Positions 6,501 through 48,632 of a stretch of 64,000 nucleotides of DNA are shown here, in pieces. Position numbers and translations under genes: made by a program. Positions within the stretch are counted from its first letter, which is position 1, and every line of letters begins with the position of its first letter. Under the pieces are notes generated by a model. The model was given only the letters and a program-made list of their open reading frames with translations. It was not told the origin of the DNA and searched no databases. The stretch is from Gigantopelta aegis (lineage: Eukaryota > Mollusca > Gastropoda > Neomphalida > Peltospiridae): assembly GCF_016097555.1 (NCBI RefSeq), contig NC_054701.1, positions 38,084,492 through 38,148,491 on the forward strand, in the 5' to 3' direction.

Positions 6501-8718
6501 TATACCATTTTACATCTTCAATGTTGAAAACCAAACCAACGTACAAGTTCCATCAAACAGCAATGAATCGTACATCGCTGTGAACGTGGTGGACTTCATT
6601 AAAGGTGTCTGTGCCAACATCACCAATGGAATACATCTAGACATCATGTATGGCGAGTCAGGCCGTGCACGAGACTATCCAATCAGAGAGATTGTTGGAG
6701 CAAGAGTTGGGTAATGAATTTATAGAATCAGGGGTGGGAATTCTCCTCGGATCAGCTGTTTTCCTCTCATGGAACATTGCATTAACCCGCATTTTAATCG
6801 TCCTTTCCACCAAATTGTGTAAGATGGCACAGATTTTAACCTAGGATTTCAAGAATTTCCATGACCCCTCTAGATTTCCTCTTTTTTACAGTTCACCAAT
6901 TCCCACCCCTGATAGAATGTATTGTATTGCACTGTGCTGTAGTTTAGTAACTAAATACTAAATTTACTAATATTAAGTTTAAAATAACATTTTCTTTTAA
7001 GGGGACATTCCTGAGTTTGCTGCATTGTAAGATATTTCCCACTAATAAAATATTTCTACGATTAAACTTTCACATTAAATTTAGAATATCAGTGTCTGTA
7101 AATTCAATGTGTTTCTGGTCGTCTTAATATTTAAAGCTATATTTTAGGAAATAAAATGAAATTTAACCTAGTATAAATATTAGATCGATCAGAGACATGT
7201 TTAATATACAGCCACCAATATTTTATGTAACTACAATTGTTAAAATTTTTCTGTTAGTTGATAATATCTTAAAAATTGCAGCAAACTCAGGAATGTCCCT
7301 TTAAGTATAGAGAATTCGAAATTGCATATTGTAATGAATGTACATTATGATGTGGATAAAATTATGGTATTTTCAGATTCACGGTGACAAACTGGCAGTT
7401 TTCATGCACAAGCCCTGGCACTTTTGCTTGTTTGAATAATAATTTGCTGACTCGGACGTTTCTCCTCACCAGTTCTGTGAGGTTCATCAAAGTGCCGGCC
7501 AGCACACCCCCAGAGCCTATCAAGTACGTACAGACTGACATGTTTATGTGTAGTTCACTGTGGCTTCAGTAACATACTGGATGGATGAATATTGAATAGC
7601 ATATCAAAAAAAGTTTGTTTTATTTAATGACGCCACTAGAGCACATTGATTTATCTATCTTATCATCGGCTATTGGACGTCAAACATATGGTCATTCTGA
7701 CACTGCTTTTTAGAGGAGACCCGCTGTCACCACATAAGCTACTCTTTTACAACAGGCAGCCAGGGATCTTTTATTTGCGCTTCCCACAGGCAGGGTAGCA
7801 CAAACCATGGCCTTTGTTGAACCAGTTATGGATCACTGGTCGGTGCAAGTGGTTTACACCTACCCATTGAGCCTTGCGGAGCACTCACTCAGGGTTTGGA
7901 GTTGGTATCTGGATTAAAAATCCCATGCCTCGACTGGGATCCGAACCCAGTACCTACCAGCCTCTAGACCGATGGCCTAACCACGATGCCACTGAGGCCT
8001 GTAAATAGCATGTCAGTGGTTGGTTCCGGTTTCCCCACATAAATTAAAAATGTATGCAATCAAAGTATCAATATCCAAATATAAACTGTCATGATTCATT
8101 TTTAAATGTTTGCTATTACATAATATATAATGGATAATTGGATATTGATAACTTAAGGAATGGATGCACAATATATTATAACTTTCTTTCTTTCCTGGCA
8201 TTGACATCAACCTCCAAATTCAAACAGTTTAAACTCAAAGACCTGCTTAATCAAAATCCTCAAATATCAGACCATTTCAGCAGAGGGCCTTTAGACTGGG
8301 TTTTTTTTTTAATTATCATTATAATTTTTTAAATAAGGAAGATAACAGAAATAAAGGACAAGAAAAATGGTCTATTATGGTCAATTTATGAGTTCTGGGG
8401 TGTGTGGGGGGGTGGGGGTGGGTAAACTGGGTTACCAGCAAATAATATTGGATTTTTTAAAGATGTATTTAATCCATTATTTGTTTTTTGGTCAGGTTCT
8501 ACACGAGTCATCCGGCCACCTGCTACAGTGACTCCTGCTTGCGGTACTTTGCTGACTATGACCAGACCATCTGCCACTATGACACTTGCTGGAGGGAACT
8601 GCTGTATCCCCTGACCGATTCCTACACTGCCGAACCTCCATTATACACACTTGGTTTCTCACTTGTGCTCGTCATATTTAGCGTGGCTTATTTCATGATA
8701 ACACGACCTTGGTTCTGA
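540..8718 (+). CDS. Tectonic family protein (TCTN2-like), 5' partial
   Basis: Tectonics are part of the MKS complex at the ciliary transition zone, which gates membrane proteins into cilia. Eight exons join in one frame through GT/AG sites: 540-790, 2114-2928, 3558-3665, 4644-4761, 5939-6043, 6498-6710, 7377-7523 and 8496-8718 (stop TGA), giving 659 residues. Tectonic features seen are an opening DCSEDDKKIFSGC block (the usual CCCD motif should be in the missing exon), the NPGYDFEKPVLSG junction, and the LKFGVDIQSACKLRL and YLGRYGVSDPRNLTHW blocks, all cysteine-rich and extracytoplasmic in character. The last exon ends in a hydrophobic segment (LGFSLVLVIFSVAYFM) followed by TRPWF, so the protein is probably anchored by a C-terminal membrane helix as in TCTN2/TCTN3. 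The donor at 3665 was chosen over the GTAAGC at 3635 because only it keeps frame with the next exon. The signal peptide and start are not in the window. TCTN2 rather than TCTN1/3 is an inference from length and the C-terminal helix. Confidence 0.88.
855..1100 (+). repeat. degenerate SINE copy
   Basis: tRNA-like head (TTATAGCTCAGTGGTAAAG) followed by decayed body phrases (CATGGTGTGTTCTGTCATGTC, GAGTAGCCTATGTGGTGTC in pieces). More diverged than the copy at 1113. Confidence 0.6.
1113..1433 (+). repeat. tRNA-headed SINE
   Basis: GTCGTAGCTCAGTGGTACAG head with an RGTTCRANYCC-like box B, the ATAAAAGATCCCTTGCTGC body, and a different tail from most copies (GTGTTGAGTGCATTGTTAAC then CATTTCCTT). This points to at least two tail subfamilies. 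Confidence 0.8.
1872..1948 (-). repeat. SINE head fragment (tRNA-like)
   Basis: On the minus strand, GATCTAGCTCAGTCAGTAAG and GGGATTGAACCG form a tRNA-like head with no recognisable SINE body. No intact acceptor or anticodon structure is evident, so it is not called as a tRNA gene. Confidence 0.5.
3740..3940. repeat. possible small MITE in Tectonic intron
   Basis: Imperfect inverted ends (CTGGTCTCTGAAAATT and its diverged complement AATTGTCAGAGGCC) enclose repeats of GCGTAACC/GGTTAC. Related sequence lies at about 29,735-29,900 (GTCTCTGAAAATTAC, TTTTGCATAACC). Confidence 0.4.
4555..4580. repeat. poly-C tract (26 C)
   Basis: Uninterrupted C homopolymer in Tectonic intron 3, about 60 bp upstream of the exon at 4644. 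Confidence 0.9.
5140..5715. repeat. 59-bp minisatellite in Tectonic intron
   Basis: About nine and a half tandem copies of a 59-bp unit built on CAACATCAGAACAATTC, CATCAACTGATCACATCA and CACTGTCTYTGGCTTCAGT. The first copies are slightly rearranged. Units differ at few positions, so the array is young or homogenised. Confidence 0.9.
6250..6466 (+). repeat. SINE fragment (body and tail)
   Basis: Decayed head, then ACAAAAGATCGTCACTG, ATATCCAATAGTCAG and the tail GATGTTGTTAAACAAAACTT. It ends about 32 bp before the Tectonic exon at 6498. Confidence 0.65.
7001..7300. mobile_element. 300-bp MITE with TTAA target sites (piggyBac-like)
   Basis: Ends RGGGACATTCCTGAGTTTGC are inverted repeats of about 24 bp, flanked by TTAA at 6997-7000 and 7301-7304. 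There is no ORF. The TTAA duplication points to piggyBac-type mobilisation. Located in Tectonic intron 6. Confidence 0.85.
7607..8002 (-). repeat. full-length tRNA-headed SINE
   Basis: The minus strand reads from the tRNA-like head (GGTTCGGATCCCAGTCGAGG) to the tail GCGTCATTAAATAAAACAAAC. The flanks AATAGCATATCA and AATAGCATGTCA look like a 12-bp target duplication with one difference. Located in Tectonic intron 7. Confidence 0.85.
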
Positions 8719-11095: not shown

Positions 11096-13031
11096 CACTA
11101 CTCAAAAGAATTTAAGGGTCAGATATTTTCGACATTATTTTCTGAATGTCGATTATATTAGCTAGAACATAATGTCACGCATGGTATTGTTCCATTTTGA
11201 CGAAAGTGGGTCTAAGCAACCCATAAATGAATTAAAATCCTCTTGTCATTGACACTGTCGACTAGTTCTAATGGCGAAAACATGCTTACATTTGCACGTA
11301 AATTAGGGCGAAAGTGAAAGGTCTGCTAAGTGCCCATAACTTGCTTTTTCAAAGCGCTTCATTTGCACGCTTTGCATGTGTATTCCATGTTCCCAATACT
11401 GAATTTCCGTATAATTGGAGCTTGCGTTCGTGTACGGTGCACACTCCAAATTCGACAATGGTACGACTTCAACTGACTACCGGCGTCGTGGCAGGCCATC
11501 GGTCTACAGGCTGGTAGGTACTGGGTTCGGATCCCAGTCGAGGCATGGGATTTTTAATCCAGATACCGACTCCAAACCCTGAGTGAGTGCTCCGCAAGGC
11601 TCAATGGGTAGGTGTAAACCACTTGCACCGACCAGTGATCCATAACTGGTTCAACAAAGGCCATGGTTTGTGCTATCATGCCTGTGGGAAGCGCAAATAA
11701 AAGATCCCTTGCTGCCTGTCGTAAAGAAGAGTAGCCTATGTGGCGACAGCGGGTTTCCTCTAAAAACAGTGTCAGAATGACCATATGTTTGACGTCCAAT
11801 AGCCGATGATAAGATTAAAAATCAATGTGCTCTAGTGGCGTCGTTAAATAAAACAAACTTTACTTCTTGTTTTTTCAACTGACTTGGTGTCAGTCAGAGT
11901 GTCGTTGGCCGACTGTGGCAACGGTACCAAGCAACGAATTCTGTTCGAAATCGTCCACGTTCGGGAAGACACCGAAGCACTACAAATAGAGAGGACCGCT
12001 ACATCACCAATATGGCTCTACGTCAACGCACAATCACTGCACGCCGATTACGTGACAATCTGCGGACTGCGACTGGAACTCGAGTGTCTGATCAAACCAT
12101 ACGCAATCGTCTGAGAGTCAATAATCTACGCTGCAGTCGCCAGGCTGTTCGACCACCACTCCTACCACGTTACAGAACGGCCAGATGTCACTGGTGCACG
12201 CTTCATCTGCGGTGGCAACGTGTTCAGTGGGGTCGAGTGACGTTCACTGATGAGTCCAGGTTTAGTCTCAGTTCAACGACGGTCGGGTTCGTGTCTACAG
12301 ACGTCCTGGGGAGCGCTTCGCTGACGTTAACGTTAGACAACGTCACCGGTTCGGTGGTGGCAGCGTCGTGGTGTGGGGCGGCATCTCTATCCACCACAGG
12401 ACCCCCCTCTATGTGGTGGATGGCAATCTGAATGGAATCCGCTATCTGAATGAGATTATCTGGCCGTTGGTTCTCCCAGGCCTTCAGCAGATTGGCGGCG
12501 GGGCAGTTCTGCAGGATGACCATGCCAGACCCCACCGCGCCAGCGTGGTAACGGACTTTCTCAGACAACAAGGTATCGCCAGGATGGATTGGCCAGCATA
12601 TTCGCCTGACTTGGCCCCAATAGAGAACACCTGGGACGAATTAGGCAGGAGAGTTCGGGATAACCATGCACCTCCGGCCAACCTTCATGATCTGGGTCAA
12701 CTTCTTATGGCAGAGTGGCAGGCCATTCCCCAAGAGTTCTTCAGACGTCTGATCAACAGCATGAGGCAACGATGTGTCGAGTGTATTCGCGCCAGGGGTG
12801 GATTCACACACTATTAAACGAATGTTCTAATGTGTAAAATCAATGTTTGACAACCTTCAACTTTGACAGCATGTCATGTGACTTTCTTGTATACAGTGAC
12901 GTTTATTTGTGGGGTTTTTGTAAATATGGAACAATAAATAAAAAAATTGGTGTAGTTTGATGATGTAATCTAATACACTCTGAAACTTATTTGGTTATAA
13001 ATTTTTGACCCTTAAATTCTTTTGAGTAGTA
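11096..13031 (+). mobile_element. Tc1/mariner-type transposon, decayed, with nested SINE
   Basis: Inverted ends built on CTCAAAAGAATTTAAGGG (about 26 bp) are flanked by TA within a TA-rich tract. Without the SINE it is about 1.54 kb. Transposase remnants lie on the plus strand at about 11,880-12,817: an HTH-type stretch (TITARRLRDNLRTATG), the first catalytic aspartate in TFTDESRFSL, and then in another frame DDHARPHRASVVTDFL and SPDLAPIENTWDELGRR. The second Asp and the Glu are 34 residues apart (DD34E). At least two frame changes separate the parts, so the enzyme is inactive. The N-terminal end of the frame is interrupted by the SINE at 11,479. Confidence 0.9.
11479..11873 (+). repeat. full-length SINE nested in the Tc1-like element
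   Basis: A 395-bp copy from tRNA-like head to TTAAATAAAACAAACTTTAC tail, flanked by a perfect 11-bp duplication TTCAACTGACT (11,468-11,478 and 11,874-11,884). Nearly identical to the copy at 32,274, so both are recent. Confidence 0.95.
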
Positions 13032-13329: not shown

Positions 13330-16300
13330 CGTGTGAATTAGAAAATATGTTTCTAATTTTCATTATTATTCATACTTACCTAGTGCTAGCACAACAAATA
13401 TGCTATTCAACCTGAGTCATACCTACACACTGCAGAATTTTCTCCCTTGCCGGATATGCGCAATGCTATCCTTGCACGGGCAACTTCATTCTCGGTTCAA
13501 AGTCCACCCAAACTCACCGAGGGAAAGCCTCATAGGGGTGGGCGGGAGGTATAGTTTGTTGTGCTAGCACTAGGTAAGTATGAATAATAATGAAAATTAG
13601 AAACAAATTTTCTAATAGTCTTATTCAACTTACTGTGCTAGCACAACAAATATGCTATAACGGACGTGCAATGACACCGTTAGAGCACGTGAATTCAACA
13701 TTAATGGGAGGAGGTAAGAAAATAGGGGACTTAACCGTACCCAAAAAGCTCCTTTGAAGTAATGACATGGAGATAGGACAAACCACGACATACGGTAACA
13801 AGGAGTCAAAAAAACTTTTGGGAATAAAAAGGGGCTTCCCAAAAGAAAAACTCATCCCCAAGAAAGGGAGGGAAAACATCTCCCCAGGGAGAGGAAACGG
13901 TAGACAACACTACAAAAAAAAAATCCCATCCCTCAGAAAAGGGTGGAGTGTTAAACATGTCCGAAGCGTGAATCGATGGCAGTCGGACGGAAAAGAGTCG
14001 ACCCCTTTCCGTTGCCCTGCGCACAGACACGACGTGTTGAGCCGCAATGACTGTCTGGATCCTACGCGTACCGTCAGGACAACCGTCATATCCCGGAAAT
14101 AGAAACGGTCAAAAGTGTGCCGTCCTTTCCAAACCCCTGCATTCATGACCTTTATAATATCTAAAGAGTCATGAAAATTCAGGGAAGCAGAAATGGCTCG
14201 GATCTCATGTGGTTTAACAGAGAAATTCTGTAACACATGATCACCCGCCATCTCATATGCTAGCTTGATGGTAGCTGCTATCCATCGAGACAAAGCATTT
14301 CTTGTGACATCACCCGGCCTAATGGTATAAGAAATAAACAATCTCTTTTTACCCTGCCGCCGGTTTTTCGTACGCTCCAAAAAAATACTCCAATGCTCTC
14401 ACCAGGCAAAGAAGTCTATCCGAATTGTCAGATGACAGTGTACGAGATAAACTGTGAATGACAGTAGGTGGAAACTCTTCCCCCGGAGACTGGTTTTTAG
14501 CAACAAAGATAGGGTCAGTACGTAAAGTGACAGACCCGTCCGAATTGTAATCAACCAAGTCATGCAAAAAAGCATGTATCTCACTGATCCGATGACAAGC
14601 CGCCAGTGAAACCAGAAACAGAGTCTTCCACGTCACAGCACGAAGACTAGCAAACCTCAACGGCTCATAAGGCGCACCCTTAAGAGCATGTAACACCAGA
14701 AAGACATTCCATTTCGGAATAATGGAAGGTCGTTCAACTGTGGATTGCAATGATTTAAGTAAATCATGCAACACCAAGTTCGTAGAAAAGTCACGACATC
14801 CACACTGTTTAAGAGTAATGAAAATCGCAGATCTGTGACTTCACTGTCGTGACTTTAAGTTTCCTTTCTTGGACCAACGCCAGAAAGTACTCCGCTAAAT
14901 CGTTGACAGTAGGCAATAAGGGATCGAAATCCCGTGCGTTCGCCCAACGAACCCACATACGCCAGTGACACTAATAAAACGACTTGGTAGATTTGCGCTT
15001 TGCTGAAGAGACGAGATGCGCAATTCTTGTCGAAAAACCTCTGCGTCGCAAGGAAGCCCTGATAACCTCCACGCGTGAAACCGGAAGACCTCCGGCTTCG
15101 GATCGGATGCCACACCGTCTGACTCAGTACCTGACTGAGTAGATCGGACAACACTGGTAACCGGAACGGGACTGTCACTAACAGTGACAGGAGCTGTGGA
15201 AACCAGGGCTGCGCCACCCACAGAGCAGCTATCAACGTCACGTGACAAGTTTCCTGGACCACTTTGGTCAACACCTTGCCGAGTAAGACAGGAGGAGGGA
15301 AGGCATAAAAATCCAGTCCCGTCCAATCCATACTTAACGCGTCGTACTCCAACGCCAATGTGTCCGGTACCGGGGACACGAACACGAACACCGGCAATTG
15401 GTTGTTCAACCGTGTGGCAAACATGTCCACCTGTGGACTGCCCCACACCCGAAGAACCGCTGCGACCACCCCTTTGTTCAACATCCACTCCGTCTGAACA
15501 GGGGTATGTCGACTGAGGGCATTGACTAATACATTCACCGATGAAGGAATGTGTTTCGCCCACAGAGTGATCCCTAGTTGGTCGCAGAATTCCAAAATCG
15601 CAAGAGCTTTGCGACCCAGTCTCCGATTTGGTTCCACCCCAACGATTGAGATATGCCACTACCGACGTATTGTCGCATCTCAACAGAATTCGACGGTGTC
15701 CAAGAACACACCGGAAATGAAGACAGGCACGATGCACTGCCTCCATCTCCAAAAAGTTGATATGAAGCTTCCTCTCGGAGAGATTCCATACACCTGAAAT
15801 GTGTTGATCCAACAGATGCGCCCCGTACCCGTGCAGCGACGCATCCGTGAAAAGGATCAGAACCGGAGCAGGGTGGTGCAACGGAACCGATAGGGGCATG
15901 CACTTGTCCGACAGGCACTCCTGTATCGGATGAGTGAACCATGGGCCCAGAGGCACTAACATGTCCCAATTGTGACCGTCCCACCGTCGGGACAAATGCC
16001 ACTGGAGTGGTCGTTTGAATCGTCTGAACCGCACGATCAATGAGGCCAGAGATTCGAGGTGGCCCAACACCACGTGGAGAAATCGTACCGTAGTACTTTG
16101 CTCCCCATCAAACGTCGCGCCGACGTTTGAAAATTGTGGATACGCGCATAGGTGGGACGAACCGACGCTACCACAAGATCGAAGACCACTCCGAGATATG
16201 TGAAAATCTGAGCCGGCGTTAACTCCGATTTCACCCAATTAGGAATAAAACCCAATTGGAGGATCGTGTCCAAAACCAACCCGACATTGGTCTGACACTC

Positions 16301-16922
16301 CTGTTGCGACGAAGCTGGGATCAACCAATCGTCCAGATAGGTATGCATTCGAACCCCTAACAAATGAACATGACCTACCACCGCTTTTACCACACGTGTA
16401 AAAGCATGGGGACTCGTCGCCAAACCGAACGGGAGCACACGAAACTCGTACGCTTTCCCGTCGAACAGGAAGCGCAGAAACTTCCAAAATGCCTTGTGCA
16501 CCGGGACGTGGAGGTATGCGTCTTTCAGATCGATCGACGCAGCCCACTCCCCAATTTGAAGCAGGTTCCGGACCGAATGAACCGTTTCCATTTTCATGGA
16601 AGGAACATCTACGTAGACGTTCAGTGGTTTCAAATTTAGGATTGGTCTCCATTCCCCATTTTTCATCTGGGCGAAGAAAAGATGAGAATAAAATCCCGGA
16701 GTGTCCAGACTGACTCTCTGGATGGCCCCTTTGTCGAGAAAGTCAGCAATCATACTCTCCACTAAAACGCGCCGATCCGCGGACGGTAACGGCGGCATTC
16801 TCGGAGTGGAAGTAAGAGGGGGGCTCGAAGAAAAGGGTATTTTGTAACCGTGTCGAACGACCGACAGAACCCAGGGGTCGAGACCAGGCAGCTTGCACCA
16901 ATTTCGCAGGAAATGGCGGAGC

Positions 16923-16925
<3 letters not shown>

Positions 16926-16985
<60 letters not shown>
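16926..16985. repeat. 60-nt poly-C tract inside the DIRS element
   Basis: Sixty consecutive C between the gag-like and reverse-transcriptase regions. It is the longest homopolymer in the window, and its assembled length should not be trusted. Confidence 0.9.
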
Positions 16986-18254
16986 ACGGGTATGGTTGCT
17001 AACGGTACCTCTAAAAGCAACTGCCGATCGTTCACGTACCCTCACGCCAACCGCTTACCACCCGTAGGCGCAACGCCTTTGGTGGACTGAGAACGGAACG
17101 CAGTACGACGTTTGCGTCCTCGCTTAGCGGAAGACGGGTTGTTACCTGGTTGCCTCCTAGTGTCAGGAACCCTAGGGATCTGAGCCGACTGTAAAAAAGC
17201 AGCCTTTTTCACAGGAGGAGGCTTGAACCCCGAAAACGTGGACCGACGTTTACCAGAGGTTGAGGGTTGAGTGTTCGGGACTGGTCGCGACAAATCCATG
17301 TCTAGGACAATATTAAAATCGGGACCGAAAAGTAAATTTTCCCGTACCGAACGTGTACGAAAAAACGTCTTCGCAACGTTTGACGCACTCAAACCCGCCA
17401 GGTAATGGTCACGCCGTAACAAAAGACTGTTCGCAAACAATCGGCTAGATAACTGAGCGATATGCTTAGAGGCTTTTAACGCAGCCTCCAAACAGCCTTT
17501 CGCCATCGCGGGAAGGCTCTCGACAGCCTTATCCAAGCCAAATAGGAACGTACCTAAATGGTTATTAACCTGGAACATCGACTTAGCCAGCTGTTCGAAC
17601 GATTCCTAATCTGCGATTGGCTATGACACATGCGGTGATGGGGAACAAGCGGCTCGGACACTAGCGGGAACGATCGCCGGATGTTCGAGAAAATCCGCCC
17701 CCAACGTCTCATAGGAGTCGGCACGAAAAATGCGCGCTCCCGTTAAGATTTTCCCCGTACGCAGTGCCGTTGGGTACTCATCAACACCCACTCCCAGTGA
17801 TCAACACATCAATGTCACAAAGTGAACTGTGCCCCTTTTGTGCAAGTGGTAAACCCGACTCCTCACGAGGAGTGACCAAATTCAAAGAACGGTTCCCGAA
17901 GGAGACACCCTTGAATGTAGGCTGGGCCTCAACCTCGGGTATAGCGTCCCCGCATACCTGTCGGACTTGGTCCCTGACAAAAGTCAGAACCGCCGGATAA
18001 TCGCACTCCTCCTCTACCTCCGAACCGAAGTGAGAGAGAGCTGGGTCAGCGACAGAATCCGGTCCAACCGACACTTCCTCTGAAGCCAGGTCACTGTCCA
18101 TTGGATCCCGAAGATCTACATGGACTCCTCCCCCTAATCGAGACGCCCCTGGGGCAGCGTCTCCCGAGACGGAAACAATAGGAACCGAACGACAATCCCT
18201 AACTGCATCGTCAAACTGTTGTCGAGACGCAGTTTCTGCTGGTTTTGGCGGAAA

Positions 18255-18257
<3 letters not shown>

Positions 18258-18289
<32 letters not shown>
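18258..18289. repeat. 32-nt poly-G tract inside the DIRS element
   Basis: Thirty-two consecutive G in the gag-like region, corresponding to a proline run on the element's coding strand. Confidence 0.9.
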
Positions 18290-18290
<1 letters not shown>

Positions 18291-19570
18291 GCCGCGCCCG
18301 ACGGTCCCGTCTGCGAAAGCAATGATCCCAACTGAGGCGAAGCGTTCAAAAATTCCACAAAACTCCGAAACAACGTTTCCTGAAAGCCTAACGGTCGTTC
18401 CTGCGCCAAGTGCGGAACGATCGGAGTTTGCCGCCACAGAGTACCCCCAGCCGAGGGGTATCTGCGCGAACCTCGTCCTCTATCGAGTAAAGTCGAAGAG
18501 GTAGGGACCAAAGACGGTGCAAACTGTAAGAGAAGTCCGTTGCTACCGAAAGTCACCGGACCCTTGGGGTAAACATATGCAAACGGAGGACCCAAACGGG
18601 ATGAGTCCTCCACCCAACGGTAAACATCGGTCGAGATGCCATCAGAGACGGATTCCGGCATCGGAACAACTGGCTCAGTTCGAAGCAAACTGGCAGAACT
18701 CTCCTCGGGCCTTGAGAATGCTGAGGTGCCGAAGCGACTGTCAGCAATCGAAGGCAAAGTCGGGGCCACCTGCTCTGCGGACGAAGCAGTGGACCTATGC
18801 ACAACGGAGTGCATGTGCTCGGTAACCGATGAAGTCGTCAAAACCGGTGCCGCGACGACTCCACTCTGCCCCCCTTCTGTTTGTCAAGGTAACCGTAACG
18901 ACGATGGCGACGCCCGCGACGAAGCCACACAAACAGAAGAAGGCGCCGTCACTAACGAAGACGGCCCACACGGACCGACGAAGAAACACCCTTGTGTTTC
19001 CCCCCTTTCCGGACACTTTTCGAAGTGTCTACAGACTTATGGGACCTACCCACTAAGTCCGACTTGCCGACTACTGCCGAAGCAGACAAGATTTTGCTGG
19101 TACCCGAAACCCCGAGTCTGCGAACCGAACCGAACCCACTGGTCAGGAGACCACGTGGCGCAGATCTCACACTGACGGTCTTGAGAACAAGACCGACAGT
19201 CCGGACACAACACGTGTGTGTCTTTACGTCGTAAAGGAAATGGACAACCATCTGGCGCACAAACTTTCGTGCGCTAGCTGTCAACGAACTCGCGTCGGAC
19301 ATGGTAAATTCAACACAGAATTCCCAACTACCAACCGTATGTCAAGTTCAACCGAAAAACAAACACAAAATTACAAGTAATGAAAACTTTTTGCAAAAGC
19401 TTAACAGGTGTTAACAGGTGGACTGCAGAATTGAGAATGAAGTTACAGGTAGCCCGTGCAAGGATAGCATTGCGCATATCCGGCAAGGGAGAGAATTCTG
19501 CAGTGTGTAGGTATGACTCAGGTTGAATAGCATTTTGTTGTGCTAGCACAGTAAGTTGAATAAGACTGAG

Positions 19571-22142: not shown

Positions 22143-25100
22143 TTATCGGTTGTTCATGTCTGAAAAGAGAAAAGTGAGAGTAATAAATCAATCTCATTAA
22201 AAATATTTAGCATTTAGTGTTCTTTCAAACTGCTTAAAAATAATAATGTCTTACAAATGTGATCAACCTGTTTTTAACTTGCACACAAATCTGTTAAAGT
22301 TACTGCGCTAGTGCTAAATGAATAGCAAACTAAAATAACATGCACAAACCACAAACTTGCATTAAATAACATGATTGATGGTAACACAGTAACCTGGCCA
22401 AATGTTTATAAAACTTTAGAGATTTCAACACAGATTTCAAAATATTAACTACAAGTTATTACTATGGGCAGGACTCTATCTATTAAATATTTCAGTCTAG
22501 ACAGGGTGGGATGTAGCCCAATGGTAATGCACTCGTCTAATAGTGGGCTCATTAGGCTATTTCTCGTTCCAGCCAGTGCACGACTGATATATCAAAGGTC
22601 ATGGTATGTGCTATCTCATCTGTGGGATGGTGCATATAAAAGTTCCCCAATCTAATTAAAATGAGCTCCACTATTACAAGTGGATCTAACAGCAGCCAGT
22701 TGGACCTCATGTCCACCAATCAAAACCTTACTTGCAGAATCATGCCAGTGATTTAAAAATAATTTGAAAACATTCCGAATTATCCTGAGGGTATACGACA
22801 TGTTTCGTGTGAATTACGAATGCCTTAAAACATGTTTTATTTTATAAAATAAATAATTTGTAATGTAAAACTGAAGACTGATTTAGTTTTTAGTTTTTTT
22901 AACAAATAAATAATTTGTAATGTAAAATTGAAGACTAATAACCCATCCCGTACGTATTGGTATGGTTCGCTGTACTGCGGCCACTAAAATGGACTCGCCC
23001 AATATTTTTAGAATTTGTATGCTCCCAAATAACGTTATAAAAGGCGAAGTGTGATTGGTCAATATTTAAATTATTATTTACAGACGAAATGTTACTTGGA
23101 CATTGGAGACTACACAGTGTTGTTAGCAATCTGATTAAAATTAGTTCTACTGGTCTAAATAAGGCATTCGTAATTCACATGAAACGTGTCGTATACCCTC
23201 AGGATAATTCGTAATATTTTCAAATTATTTTCAAATCACTGGCATGATTCTGCAAGTAAGGTTTTGATTGGTGGACATGAGCTCCAACTGGCTGCTGTTA
23301 GATCCACATGTAATAGTGTAGCTAATTTTAATTAGATTGAAAAGATCCCTTGCTACTAATGGGAAAAATGTAGCGGGTTTCTTCTCTAAGACTATAATGT
23401 CAGAATTACCAAATGTTTAACATCCAATAGCCGATGATGAACAAACTAATGTGTCCTAGTGGTGTCCTTAAACAATATAAACTTTCAATTTAGACATTCC
23501 ATTAATGCAGTATATTAGACTGTTAAAGATATAATAATATAGAAGATAAAACAACATACTCAATCTCTGGCCAGTGACAACCCGAGACGAAACCGCCCTC
23601 CTGAACGCTGCATTGATGGCCATGTTTCGGGCCTGATTCAAGTTAATTCCCGCCCCAGCAGAGCTGGCCCTGGGACTGATCAGAGGCGACACCTGCGGAG
23701 AGAAGCGTGCGTTCTGGAGCTGGGGCCGGATGCCTCTCTGCTGGGCTTGTAAAGCTGCCAGCTGGTTCATTTGATTCAGGTGACTTAGAGCCTGAGCTGC
23801 TTGTGCTGAAAAAAAACAAAAAAACCATTCGCATATTTAAAATAACACTGTTATGAAATAGCACACAGAAAACAAGAGTAAGTACTGCCGTAAATATGTG
23901 TCCAACAATACATTACATATTAAAAACTACAGAGAGAATACACATAATGAAGCTTCCTGATACTGTCAGCCAAGTCATTACTGTAGTGACAGTAATTAAT
24001 TATGACTGGCACTATGGACAGGGGCAGACATTAAAAAAATATATTCTTCTGGCCTGCAAGACCAGTAGTTAGCTTAAAAAGATTCCATCTGTTTTCTCCT
24101 CCACCCCCTATGTCGGCTATGAAAAAGCAACACTTACCCCCTGCAGGTGTATTCATTAACTGATGCATCAACATTGCATTGGCCGATGCGGAATTCACAT
24201 TTCCTGGTAAGGGCATACGGTGCATGTTCATGCTGAACTGAGACGAAGCAGACATCCCCACCGAATGCCGGACAGGCAGCTGAGGAATATGGCGCACTGG
24301 ATTCGCCTGCATGGGAACATGGCGCTGTCGGAATATGTCGGGGATGTGGATTTTGGTGCTAGATGTTGATGTTATGGATGAAGAATTGCCACTTCTTGAA
24401 CCAGATGATGAGCTCGCACCTGAATTTATTATAAAAAAAAACGTCTGACGAAAAGTGCAAAGAATTTGCTTCAGTTTGAATAAATTTTTAAAGTTGTATT
24501 AATAATCACTTCTATGATACCAAGATGAATGCAAGGGAATACTTATTTTTTATAACCAAAGAAGTTTAGTTATTAAATAATGCAATAAATAATAAGTCAT
24601 CAAATAAATTATATCTTACATGGCAATAGTAACACATTTTATTCATAGATAACATTGCACCATGTATTTATGTTACTTGGGATTGGGAAAATTAGCCAAA
24701 TTTAATCTTACAATGGAATTGGGTGATAACCCCTGGAACAATATTTTTTTATAAAAAATTCTAGTAATACATGTACCACACACACATACATGCACAAGCA
24801 GTAAAAAACTTACTATAATCCCGAGTACATCAAAGAAATTGCCAATTAGAAAAAACTATCTACCATGCTGTGTGTAAAGCTAGTCTATCATGGAATATCT
24901 AATAGCATGCATCCTTCCATTGTACAGAATGTCATATAGCATGTTGTCTTTATCAATCAAGATATTTTATTTTTTCATGTTAAATTCACAGATAATTAAT
25001 GAGCATTGTAGCCATTTCATACAATGACATCCAAGATTAACTGCTGAACAACTTCGGTATCACCTAACCTGCACTATTAGCTTGCTTGTATACAACTGAC

Positions 25101-38623: not shown

Positions 38624-40723
38624 GGTAACGGAATTACGAGTTGGAGAGATATTTCAGGCATTAAACTCAGCTAGTCCACATAAGAAAAATTAGCATAATG
38701 ATGTAACTATGTAATACACTAGTACTGCACTAGTGCTTGTTTATGGACAGAACTGAGACTCTCTACTGCAAGGTGTAGTGCATGAGTACTTAATTAAAGT
38801 TTGGTAACGGAATTACGTAAAAACGGACACCATTTTTACGGGCACCGCAAAACAACAACAAACTCTGTGAAGTATGATGAAATAATTATTTATCTTCATG
38901 ATGGAATGATGACCTAATGACTTGTGATTAACAAAATAGAAATTATATTACATATTATCTTTTCATAATTTTGTTGTACAACATTGAATGCCGGTAACGG
39001 AATTACACAGTTCAGTAACGGAATTACCGCTCTGAATTTACTTTTGAAAAACAATATTTATTTACTTTAAATTTGATTTGTAAATATGTTGCATAATTTT
39101 ATGAGTTAAATAATAATTCAGTATACTTGTTTTAAGCATTCATATTAATATTTCAAATGATAACTAGTTTCAATATCAGTAACATGTACACGTACATGTA
39201 TATGAGTGGAGATTTAAACTAGCACTAAACTGTGTACATACTAGTATTACATAGTAAATGTTTAAAATGTTTGACAACAATTGAAAAAAATTCTTGAACA
39301 TTGACATTGTTAATAACAAAGAGAATGACACCAGGTCAGAGGAACACAGGCCAAATAAAATTATATAAACTGACCGTCAAACATCTAGATTGTATTATGG
39401 TAAGTGAAAGATATTATGCCTAATAATAAAATTCCTCATCTATCTGAGGTTATGGTAACATACATGACAACATTCAAAACACCAGTATTTTCTTTTTTGG
39501 CCAACCAAACATGCCATCTTTCCATTTTAAGAATTTTACTCAGATTAGACTTCCTTGTGAAACAGCATTAATACTATAAAACGGTTGCTTTCTTTTTGTC
39601 CATTTTATACATTTAAAAGCATAATGTTGGTAATTAGAATGATACTTACCATTTTCTGGATATCCTGTCATTTAAATATAAATTATTAAATACAGTCAAT
39701 AATTGCCTTTGGATAAAGTAAAATTAAAGTTTGCTTCAAGTAAATATGTTATGTTACATTTCCACTTTCTGGACCCTATATATGTTTAAAGATATGTATA
39801 GAGCTTGAAATAGTGGCCTGTAAAAAGTGAAAAGAAGTCTATGTTTAAATCTTGCAAGTGAAATAAACATTCACCTGCTAAAATTAACTAAAAATTGCAT
39901 AATTTTTCAAAAAACAGATGTACATAAATATTATGATCATCTCATCTTCTATATTTAGCTGAGGTCGAGCTCATAATTCTGTTACATTTTAATTTTATAA
40001 TGCTCTAAGTAGTTTAAGAGGTCTTAATTTTCCACACATTGTCCCAAACCCTACATTCATGTTGTGTTGTCTTATTTCCAGCAGGCCATTTTTGTTTCAC
40101 AGCAGGCCATATTTCTTTTAGCCTGCTATTTAAAAAAATAATAATGGCAGGCCATATTTTACTTCATGTTTCGAGCCCCGATATAATTCTAGTAGGTTTC
40201 GATTATAACTTGAATTTTGTCATGGATTTGCAGAAGTTTAGTCATCATAATGAAGCTTTTAAGTAGTACTGTTTGGTTAAAGTGTATCAGATTTCCTTAA
40301 TTTCTATATTGTTAATGGATGACATTTATATTTGCTATGGGTGTTCCGCAAATGCATTTGGAGCCACTACTAGTATTATTACCATATGGATTTTTTAAAA
40401 AGATTTTGTACATCTTCCTATTGTTACATCACTTGATGTACTGGTATATATGGATAAGAGTGTAGCATTTTAGTATTGTGTAGGTTATATTAAAGTGTTT
40501 CTTAACAATATATACCAAAGACGGTAACGGAATTACAAACCTATGGTAACGGAATTACATATGTTTAGAGCTATATAATTTTACTAATAATGTATGAATT
40601 TGAAAGTAAATGTGTCTGATTATGTTAATTAACATATACTCAGAGAATATGAGTCGATTCCTTGATTACATATAAATGAATAATACAATCTAACTTTTTG
40701 TTTGTTTTCGGTAACGGAATTAC
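38624..40723 (+). repeat. iterons GGTAACGGAATTAC (seven copies)
   Basis: Copies start at 38,624, 38,803, 38,993, 39,014 (AGTAACGGAATTAC), 40,523, 40,545 and 40,710. Two close pairs have start-to-start spacings of 21-22 bp. Flanking bases are unrelated, so the conserved unit is the 14-mer itself. Confidence 0.95.
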
Positions 40724-40883
40724 AAACTGATTCTGTTTTCTAATTTCTCCTAAATGTAAAAAAAAAATATTTTTCATTAAAGTGGATTATGAAGTGGTAA
40801 AACAAAAACACTAATAAAAAGAATATTACCTTCAATTACATGGCTGCTGTACATAAATTCATAGTGTGTATTATGGAAGTGTT

Positions 40884-41830
40884 TAGCCCGAGTACTCTGA
40901 CTGTAAGAGAGCTAGACGGACATTTGGACATAAACACGCTCTCATTACAGTCAGAGACCAACCTATGTCTTTTTTTGGCAATTCCTGACTACCAAACGGT
41001 AGGCAATGAGTCCCGCTCTAATACCACAACAATCCTATGTTTGACGTCAAATACCTTTACATCAATCATTTTCGAGTTAAGTGATACAAAAAAATCCACA
41101 TATTAATCACTAATACACTTACTACAGAAAGAAACCCAACAGCACCCACATTCAGCTACGTTTCGTGACACTCCGTCGCAACAATTGCAAAGCTCGGCGA
41201 TCTATTTCGAGACGTAGACCACGTGATCGCGCACTGGGCGATTCCGCCTTGTGCAGCAGTTACAGGGGCCGTTTCATATCAAGCGAAGTTACAACATGGA
41301 AGAGTTGGCTAATGCCGTTTTGGATGAATTTGGATTTCATTACGTCATTAAACCAAAACAATTACACATTATTGATTCCATTTTGAATTTGAAGGATACA
41401 TTTGGGGTGTTATCGACAGGATACGGCAAAAGTATGTGCTACGTACTGCCTCCTCTTATGAGACGACCCCTGTAACTGCTGCACAAGGCGGAATCGCCCA
41501 GTCTCGAAATAGATCGCCGAGCTTTGCAATTGTTGCGACGGAGTGTCACGAAGCGTAGCTGAATGTGGGTGCTGTCGGGTTTCTTTCTGTAGTATGTGTA
41601 TTAGTGATTAATATCTGGATTTTTTTGTATCACTTAACTCGAAAATGATTGATGTAAAGGTATCTGACGTCAAACATAGGATTGTTGTGGTATTAGAGCG
41701 GGACTCATTGCCTACCGTTTGGTAGTCAGGAATTGCCAAAAAAAGACATAGGTTGGTCTCTGACTGTAATGAGAGCGTGTTTATGTCCAAATGTCCGTCT
41801 AGCTCTCTTACAGTCAGAGTACTCGGGCTA
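40884..41830. mobile_element. palindromic (fold-back) element with RecQ-like helicase fragment in its loop
   Basis: Arms 40,884-41,272 and 41,464-41,830 are inverted copies that differ mainly by 22 bp present only in the left arm. Flanking GGAAGTGTT and GGAAGTGTC give a 9-bp duplication with one difference. Each arm starts TAGCCCGAGTACTCTGAC, and its first 70 bp or so can fold back on itself (CTCTGACTGTAAGAGAGC against GCTCTCATTACAGTCAGAG). The 191-bp loop is coding-like. Long arms and a 9-bp duplication suggest a Mutator-like or related element. Confidence 0.88.
41296..41475 (+). pseudogene. truncated RecQ-like helicase N-terminus
   Basis: A frame from the ATG at 41,296 reads MEELANAVLDEFGFHYVIKP, then KQLHIIDSILNLKDTFGVL and STGYGKSMCYVLPPLM, before it runs into the right arm and stops (RRPL, TAA). 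The Q-motif-like KPKQ and the Walker A STGYGKS are as in RecQ-type superfamily 2 helicases. All later motifs (DExH onward) are absent, so it cannot be a working helicase. The frame is intact over the whole loop, which suggests recent loss. Confidence 0.75.
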
Positions 41831-42034
41831 GGAAGTGTCATATTTTTAATGTGACGGTATCCTCATAAAATAGCTAAAGTCAAACACATTCATTTATTTC
41901 ACAATATTTTACTTATCAGATTTGGATTCTCCAGACTTTTTTACATTAAAAACAATCTTAATATATAAGGAATAACATGATTTGATTTTTTCACTCCATC
42001 ATCCATGTCCACTTTAGCGTGGAATTGCCCATAT

Positions 42035-42515
42035 ATTGGAATTGGATTTGCCTCACAAGTAACTACATAAGTCTCTGGGTGTATGAAATCTAGTCCGAAG
42101 GGACGTAGAATGTGTGGTTCTTCTACTTATCTATTTGAACTATTTCGTTGGGGTAAAGTGCAATTTGCAGCCAATGTAACGTAAATCATGTTCTCGAGAG
42201 TCGAGGTCGAAATGGAAATGTCAGAATTTGATTCCGACATAATCCGTTCTCTTGCGATTACATTCTATTTAGAAGATAAAAAACAAATATCTGGTTTTAA
42301 TTAATGTTATTACACATTATACAAACAGATACAAAGACACCACTAAAATTTTGTTTGTCTCTACACGTCCACAGACCTTTTTTTTTGTCCTTACAAAAAG
42401 CCGCTCTCTTCCAAAGAACTTTTCTTCTAATTTGTTGTTACTAAACGCAACTGTCATTGGACACTTTCTAACTCCGCCTGCCTGCAAGAAACTCGTCAAC
42501 ACGAACACGGACTCT
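42035..42515. other. no gene recognised
   Basis: Sequence between element I1 and the next SINE. No exon, terminal repeat or family is recognised. Confidence 0.4.
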
Positions 42516-45659: not shown

Positions 45660-46342
45660 CAATCTAATTAAAATTAGCTCCACTATTACATGTGGATCTA
45701 ACAACAGCCAGTTGGAGCTCATGTCCACCAATCAAAACCTTACTTGCAGAATCATGCCAGTGATTTAAAAATAATTTGAAAATATTCCGAATTATCCTGA
45801 GGATATACGACATGTTTCGTGTGAATTACGAATGCCGTAAAACATGTTTTATTTTATAAAATAAATAAGTTGTAATGTAAAACTGAAGACTGATTTAGTT
45901 GGGGGGTTTTTATAAATAAATAAATACTTTTGAATGTAAAATTGAAGACTGATAACTCATCCCGTACGTATTGGTATCGTTCGCTGTACTGCGGCCACTA
46001 AAATAGACTCGCCCGATATTTTTAGAATTTGTATGCACCCAAATAACGTTATAAAAGGCGAAGTGTGATTGGTCAATATTTAAATTATTATTTACAGACA
46101 AAATGTTACCTGGACATTGGAGACTACGCAATCTGATTAAAATTAGTTCTACTGGTCTAAATAAGGCATTCGTAATTCACATGAAACATATCGTATACCC
46201 TCAGGATAATTCGGAATATTTTCAAATTATTTTCAAATCACTGGCATGATTCTGCAAATAAGGTTTTGATTGGTGGGACATGAGCTCCAACTGGCTGCTG
46301 TTAGATCCACATGTAATAGTGGAGTTAATTTTAATTAGATTG
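45660..46342. mobile_element. Mutator-like MITE, copy 2 (683 bp)
   Basis: Same family as 22,648-23,339, with CAATCTAATTAAAATTAGCT ends. A perfect 9-bp duplication ATCATAAAT flanks it (45,651-45,659 and 46,343-46,351). It is inserted in the Polinton-like fossil. Confidence 0.92.
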
Positions 46343-46713
46343 ATCATAAATACACTTATTTCCTGAAAAATTTTTTTTGTTTAATCTAGAGCGTTGACCT
46401 TGTCGACACAAATAATACACCTGGCGTTGGCAGAATAGCGGGCGAATCGTAGGTCACGTAAAGGCTGGTTCAGTCGAATTGTTAATAACAAATATATGCG
46501 AATGTGCCCAGATTATTGTCATTGACAAGGCATCATACCCATAAACCTGTTTTTTGTTGTTGTTTTTTTAACAAGATAATTTTTATTTTATTTTTTGTAT
46601 TCTTAAAATCAAATTGACCAGTTCTTCCTTGATTTCTCTTCTGTCCCTGAAAAAAGAAATAGAAATAGTTTTTCAAATTTGATGCAATAGCTCTCAAAAA
46701 AGTTAATATTCCT

Positions 46714-46913
46714 NNNNNNNNNNNNNNNNNNNNNNNNNNNNNNNNNNNNNNNNNNNNNNNNNNNNNNNNNNNNNNNNNNNNNNNNNNNNNNNNNNNNNNN
46801 NNNNNNNNNNNNNNNNNNNNNNNNNNNNNNNNNNNNNNNNNNNNNNNNNNNNNNNNNNNNNNNNNNNNNNNNNNNNNNNNNNNNNNNNNNNNNNNNNNNN
46901 NNNNNNNNNNNNN
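46714..46913. other. assembly gap (200 N)
   Basis: Two hundred N, a round number that probably marks a scaffold gap of unknown true size within the Polinton-like fossil. Confidence 0.99.
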
Positions 46914-48632
46914 ACAAGTACCTGGAGAACAGGTCGATGATCATCATGAGGTATCTCACCCCGTCATTGTATTTAGCCAAACTGACCATATCCATTAGAT
47001 CGGATTGCCAGTGACTGTCTAACCCTTCCATAACATAGGTATTACGTGGAAACTTTCGCCTCACTTGATGTGTCATGGTATAGGTCTCTTGACCTTTCAA
47101 CCATGATTTAATACGTGTCAGAGGAGTTTCTGGCGTAACTGTATGGGCCACCACCCAAATGTCTGCATCCTCGTGTAAGACGTGGCGCATTTCGGGATAA
47201 TGACAGAACAGGTAACGTCTCGAACAGCAGTCTTCTTCATCCCAGGCAGCGTCTGTTTTATATTCTCGAGCGGCATCTGTTTGATCCATGGGTTCTTTGC
47301 TCTCACCATCTTCATTTTCATCCATATTGTCACAGGCAGCATCCGTTTGATCCATGAAATGTTCTTCTGGTTTGGTAACCACTCTTTTACATTTCATTGT
47401 ACGTCTTTCTGAACATTTGCAGACCAAGATGTCGTCCTCGTCGCTACTGCTGCTGCTACTAACACTGCTCGAATATCCCGATGCCATCTTCTTCATTCCA
47501 GATGCAACAAGACATAAGAATGTCAGAATCATAAAACATGTCTGTTCTTTAGCACAGTCACAAAGCAAATGAAGTGTAAACCATAAATCCATTCTTTTAT
47601 ACCTTCGGGTTCATCCAAAACAAAACTCGTTCACCACTGGTGACACTCGTTAGGGTTGCAGAAGTTACACTGAAGAAATCCCATCTTGTTTTGATGGTCG
47701 TCTTGCATGGCGCACGGCACAATTGAGTTCAGCTCTGGTACAAAGACAAACATGACTGTGAAACAGCCTTTCAGTTTCTCCCATTGTTGTAGAGAAAGGA
47801 ATATTCCCTTCTTCGAAGGTTTCACAGATTTCGTTTCATCACACCACCACCACTGTCACAGGTCCACCCCAGCAAAGTTCTTGTCGACGCTGACGTGGAC
47901 GTTGGCACCAAGGTGTCTGAAATTGTTTTCGTCTTTCCCCTGGTTTAATGCTGAAATTGTTTCGTCAATTTGGCTTTTATATCCACACAGTTCGATCCAC
48001 TGCTTAAGACTAAGGACAATACCTCGCTTGGTAGGAAAAGTTTTCCTCTTGTCACTGTCAAATTTCCTTATGTGAATAGCAGTGTCCCCTTTCCATAACT
48101 TGGCCACCACGTAGACATTAGTTCCAAGTGCTAGACATGTCACTTCATCACTTGTGGAACAGGCCATCTCTGGATTGAACATACTCTTCGTGCCAGTCTA
48201 AGTAGGTCAGGGGAGTATTCTAAGTAGGTCAGGGTCGGGTCAGTAGGATGTTGCACACGGCACAGTAGGCCAGTCTAAGTAGGTCACTGTCAGTCTAAGT
48301 AGGTCAGGGCCGGGTCAGTAGGACGTTGCACACGGCAGTCTAAATAGGTCAAGGTCAGTCTAAATAGGTCAAGGTCAGTCTAAGTAGGTCAGGGCCGGGT
48401 CAGTAGGTCACGTGACATCATCAATGTCAAGGTCACGGAAAGTAGGTCATGACTCCAGGCAGCCCCCCCCCCCCCCCACTCCTCTGATTGGACCGGTAGT
48501 GAACTAATAAAGTATTTAACTGTGAAAAATGGGTAAATTGCTATGAAAGCCAAACCTGATCTGTAACAGTACATAAAGCTATACAAAATATTTTAGCACA
48601 ATATCTCAACCCATTCTGAAAAAATATATATA

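Follow-up and report, generated by a model that had tools for sequence, protein, structure and literature searches.

What kind of element is the 947-bp palindromic sequence at positions 40884–41830 of a 64-kb stretch of DNA from the gastropod Gigantopelta aegis (contig NC_054701.1; the whole stretch of 64,000 nucleotides is called the window here), and how did the beginning of a RecQ-like helicase come to lie between its arms? The first-pass annotation of this DNA offered two readings, the internal deletion of a longer, helicase-bearing transposon and the capture of a host helicase fragment (Pack-type). Of these, the deletion fits better and points to a kind of element that has been described, while capture fits less well. 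We propose, with a probability of about 0.6, that the element is a non-autonomous foldback copy that arose by internal deletion of a RecQ-encoding DNA transposon, most likely one of the AcademH lineage.

The foldback structure was confirmed, with termini that read TAGCCC...GGGCTA (in their longer form, TAGCCCGAG...CTCGGGCTA). The two inverted arms (Table 1) are nearly identical, as had been claimed: their alignment contains 367 identical columns out of 395, the others being 7 mismatches and a single gap of 21 bp, which gives 98.1% identity (367/374 positions) outside the gap. The 330-nt ungapped core of this pair was the longest of 121 inverted pairs in a search of the window that allowed separations of up to 8 kb, as judged from the best 25 of the 121. 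The loop between the arms had been put at 191 bp and proved to be shorter (178 nt), because the left arm extends 6 bp further in than position 41272.

The flanks of the element carry a direct repeat, GGAAGTGTT/GGAAGTGTC, in the place where the first-pass annotation reported a 9-bp duplication. The repeat is present, but it is exact over 8 bp only, and a length of 9 bp requires one mismatch (8/9 matching). An exact word of at least 8 bp was obtained in 37 of 20,000 random position pairs of the window (0.185%) when these were given equal freedom of register (3 bases at either end), the centre taken for the observed case lying one base beyond the true end on either side, inside the allowed freedom. 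With the register fixed, 9 bp with at most one mismatch occurred in 0.03% of 200,000 window pairs. The arms are real, and at such low chance rates the insertion scar is very probably genuine. The empty site before insertion would read a single GGAAGTGT(T/C).

The loop does encode a RecQ-like N-terminus with the motif STGYGKS, as was first suggested. The frame is open upstream as far as 41227, within the left arm, and the ATG at 41296, which is 17 nt inside the left arm's inner edge and stands in the context AACATGG, is the start codon whose position agrees with the N-termini of RecQ proteins. Codons 1 to 53 lie in the loop, codon 54 falls across the junction, and codons 55 to 59 lie in the right arm together with the stop codon (TAA, 41473–41475) that follows these five codons, in agreement with the earlier observation that the frame ends by reading into this arm. 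The 59-residue fragment matched TIGR00614 (recQ_fam; we take CDD:129701 to be its CDD entry) with an E value of 2.8e-10 over positions 6–50 of 470, and TIGR01389 with an E value of 9.9e-10; its match to PF00270 (E 1.3e-5, 25.4 bits) was just below the 26-bit cut-off. In a phmmer search of solved structures the best matches were the RecQ chain 4tmu (E 1.3e-6), 1oyw (5.4e-6), which we take to be the RecQ of E. coli, and WRN (1.9e-5), followed by weaker matches to BLM, RECQ1, RECQ4, RECQ5 and some RNA helicases (50 distinct sequences, E up to 1). The Walker A motif of the fragment, TGYGKS, has the form found in the WRN alignments.

These alignments also bear on the origin of the fragment. Its alignment to a WRN chain (9hzg_E, 1432 residues) begins at WRN residue 544 and at residue 12 of the fragment, which has 11 residues before it, whereas the alignment to a RECQ5 chain (991 residues) begins at residue 23 against residue 11 of the fragment, and that to 1oyw at residue 13 against residue 5. 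The start of the fragment therefore appears to be that of a compact RecQ gene, own start codon included, and not that of an internal piece of WRN, which makes it unlikely that the source was an exon from inside a WRN-like host gene. As the fragment ends shortly after the Walker A motif and contains none of the later helicase motifs, it is presumably dead and should be non-functional as a helicase.

Helicase-bearing transposons of this type are on record. A 'RecQ Helicase in Academ' is named in PMC3627910, and a survey of fungal genomes found Academ copies that contain PF00270 and recQ_fam (CDD:129701) domains (PMC6416283). AcademH elements carry a helicase and make 9- or 10-bp duplications, whereas AcademX elements carry a nuclease and make duplications of 3 or 4 bp (PMC10045372); the paper that defined AcademH is cited by PMC10799480 and PMC10045372. 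We consider that the present element is likely to belong to AcademH, judging from its RecQ start, its inverted ends and the approximate length of its duplication. In the scheme that we propose, each end of the parent would have been about 400 bp long; its helicase gene would have begun 17 bp from the inner edge of one end, and its transposase gene would have been located at some other place in the element. During gap repair that was aborted, or through a template switch, all sequence between roughly codon 54 of the helicase and the inner boundary of the opposite end would have been lost. The parental transposase would then have mobilised the shortened copy in trans through its ends, perhaps at a nested hairpin that lies near each of them, and the copy would have been inserted through a staggered cut of about 9 bp.

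Several observations weigh against this derivation. The copy at 40884–41830 shows no transposase, and there is neither a second nor a longer copy of an arm or of the loop in the window, where the only match was the element itself. No remaining sequence can be assigned to the right interior of the parent, so that the right-hand breakpoint of the deletion must fall within the right repeat or at its edge. Only 8 bp of the duplication are exact, as against the 9 or 10 bp reported for AcademH; an exact 8-bp duplication is normal for Mutator-like elements and suits them slightly better. The start of the fragment is compatible with the first exon of a RECQ5-like gene, which would look much the same. 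Finally, Academ elements among molluscs are described as almost confined to bivalves (PMC10294476).

The most serious competitor, which we nevertheless regard as unlikely, is Pack-type capture, in which a foldback element of the Mutator-like kind would have picked up the first exon of a host gene of the RecQ family and would hold the copy between its long inverted repeats. The hallmarks of Mutator-like elements, inverted repeats of more than 100 bp and duplications of 8–10 bp (PMC5225508), are both found here, and non-autonomous Mutator-like copies often hold fragments of host genes (PMC5225508, PMC3169594). The animal elements Muta1 and Tm1 have been compared with foldback elements or assigned to them (PMC5225508, PMC3169594), and a different foldback family with 9–10-bp duplications occurs twice in the window. 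The captured piece would, however, need to start close to the initiation codon of a compact RecQ gene, which speaks mildly against this explanation. So does the absence of subterminal tandem repeats, as no arrays were detected in 40800–41900 at score 30. Short repeats of this kind were described in 10 of 12 long-repeat families of Aedes (PMC5225508) and in Tm1 (PMC3169594), but because two of the long-repeat Aedes families also do without them, their absence here is a weak argument.

Two further origins appear improbable to us. In the first, the parent would not be an Academ element, but a Mutator-like or unclassified animal transposon that carries its own RecQ gene behind a long end containing both a promoter and a hairpin, which would imply an independent gain of a helicase in another superfamily; we see only a slim chance of this. 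The second is that, in replication or repair, one end of a helicase-bearing transposon served as the template for a reversed copy of itself, the right arm being a duplicate of the left and not the original right end. Such a snap-back, to which we give similarly little weight, is consistent with the high identity of the arms outside the gap and with the lack of any recognisable right-interior sequence, but it would not be expected to leave a duplication on both sides unless the copy later transposed. Moreover, the 21-bp difference in arm length and the excess of inner mismatches mildly suggest that the two ends have had separate histories; this excess (the innermost 14 positions hold 2 mismatches and the remaining 360 hold 5; Fisher p 0.025) refers to a split that was picked post hoc, after the data had been seen. 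An inversion within a host gene or an assembly artefact, with no mobile element at all, is highly improbable in spite of the single copy in the window and of a 200-N assembly gap (which is distant, at 46714–46913), given that the duplication at the arm ends, for which host gene inversion was rejected, is expected by chance at a rate of 0.03–0.2% and that the G+C content is higher in the arms (44%) than in the flanking 1 kb on either side (29% and 37%).

The coordinates of the element's parts are collected in Table 1.

Table 1. Parts of the foldback element and its insertion site, numbered from the first letter of the window.
Feature	Position	Strand	Remarks
Left target-site duplication	40875–40883		GGAAGTGTT
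Left arm (terminal inverted repeat)	40884–41278	+	395 bp; first letters TAGCCCGAGTACTC
Nested subterminal hairpin, left arm	40895–40956	+	18-bp stem with one bulge, 25-nt loop
Loop	41279–41456	+	178 nt between the arms
RecQ helicase N-terminus with Walker A STGYGKS	41296–41475	+	matches to TIGR00614, PF00270 and RecQ structures in PDB
Right arm (terminal inverted repeat)	41457–41830	-	374 bp; without 21 bp that the left arm has
Mirror copy of the hairpin, right arm	41758–41819	-	arms identical here; words at 41762 and 41808
Right target-site duplication	41831–41839		GGAAGTGTC

Each arm contains a nested inverted repeat near its outer end, which the first-pass annotation did not mention and in which CTCTGACTGTAA-GAGAGC stands opposite its own complement with 25 bases between them. 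Folding was computed for the end of the left arm, and the hairpin of the right arm was taken from the identity of the arms. The outer 101 nt (40883–40983) gave a folding energy of -16.2 kcal/mol, compared with a mean of -6.82 for shuffled sequences (z -4.36), and none of 200 shuffles folded as well. The perfect palindrome GAGTACTC at 40890–40897 overlaps the outer edge of this hairpin. The site occurs near each end as two copies in inverted orientation, which may form a pair for the binding of a transposase, and the nested hairpin is one small structural addition of this single, transposase-less remnant. In other searches of this region, a repeat finder returned no more than two pairs of 12-nt words in the left arm, which look like chance matches, Rfam had no match at gathering score over 40500–42200, and a sigma-70 promoter scan found 2 sites where 3.0 were expected, under a model that is irrelevant to a eukaryote. 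The word TGACGTCA, which we take to be CRE-like, is present in both arms and proves nothing about a promoter.

Relatives of the element were also sought in sequence collections that cover viruses, bacteria, archaea and plasmids. The whole element had no blastn match among plasmids and phages, three DNA patterns had no matches in viral_contigs, and a DNA pattern had none in genome_contigs. At the protein level, 21 stretches in viral_contigs fitted the pattern, none of which was confirmed, and of 95 that did so in genome_contigs two were confirmed (in genomes labelled Micrarchaeota and Microscillaceae, with 46 and 50% identity). These two prokaryotic relatives are not informative as to the element's origin, and because of the composition of the collections, absence from them carries little weight for a transposon of animals. 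A second helicase stretch was not found in the window among 1145 open stretches of at least 30 residues (E up to 1).

The remainder of the window contains several other repeats and genes, for which the Pfam scan covered 10 of the 28 open frames of at least 120 residues. The two members of the second foldback family (22648–23339 and 45660–46342) are 93.2% identical, with arms of about 180 bp and ends CAATCTAATTAAAAT; the former is flanked by a 10-bp duplication with one mismatch (AAAAGTTCCC/AAAAGATCCC) and the latter by an exact one of 9 bp (ATCATAAAT). This family has no blastn match to the element at 40884–41830 (E up to 1e-3). The stretch 13337–19536 has two matches on its minus strand, one to a reverse transcriptase (PF00078, E 1.1e-20) and a weak one to RNase H, which lie between inverted repeats at 13397–13484 and 19449–19536, and by its look we assume it to be a DIRS-type retroelement; the frame 13910–14380 had no Pfam match. 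A Tc1-type transposase extends across two overlapping frames at 12012–12817 (PF01498, PF13358), and inverted arms at 7610–7978 and 11493–11861, 3.5 kb apart, are 97% complementary over ungapped stretches of up to 233 bp. In the open frame 2100–2963, a Tectonic domain (PF07773, E 1e-8) presumably marks a host gene of cilia. Together with the Tc1-type transposase and the reverse transcriptase, this domain indicates an animal source, and the repeats give the impression of a mollusc. The assembly gap mentioned above lies inside the open frame 46609–47592.

If our reading is correct, a transposon with its own helicase has been mobile in this lineage, leaving small, recognisable foldback remnants. 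A parent copy, if found, would add the ends and duplication length of one more family to the comparison of the helicase and nuclease lineages of Academ, in which the length of the duplication seems to be tied to the accessory enzyme (PMC10045372). RecQ fragments such as that at 41296–41475 are easily mistaken for host genes, as with the fungal Academ copies that carry these domains and are annotated as such (PMC6416283). The subtelomeric RecQ genes described in a fungus (PMC4522978) have no bearing on the element.

Among the known systems with which we compared the element, Helitrons resemble it in carrying a helicase. That helicase is of the Pif1 type, and Helitrons have neither inverted ends nor a duplication; they were rejected, as the element here is flanked by a duplication, ends in long inverted arms and has a helicase of the RecQ type. 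KolobokH, whose duplication is TTAA, was rejected on account of the flanks, which read GGAAGTGTT/GGAAGTGTC. It is alike in being a DNA transposon with a RecQ helicase and is described from fungi only (PMC9587614). Mutator-like foldback elements and Pack-MULEs (Muta1, Tm1) share the long inverted ends, the 8–10-bp duplication and the variable content between the ends, but differ in that the helicase start here is placed like an element's own gene, that subterminal tandem repeats are missing, and that no Mutator transposase was seen. We know of no Mutator element that encodes RecQ. AcademH elements encode a helicase and make duplications of 9 or 10 bp; the element here resembles them in having the start of a RecQ-family helicase within inverted ends and a duplication of 9 bp with one mismatch (8 bp if exact), and differs in being shorter than 1 kb, in lacking a transposase and in having its helicase cut after about 54 codons. 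The combination of a RecQ start, inverted ends and a duplication near 9 bp in length suits AcademH better than the other kinds considered; and since RecQ-carrying Academ elements have already been described, the locus is not a hint of something new, and the element is probably an ordinary example of an already described kind.
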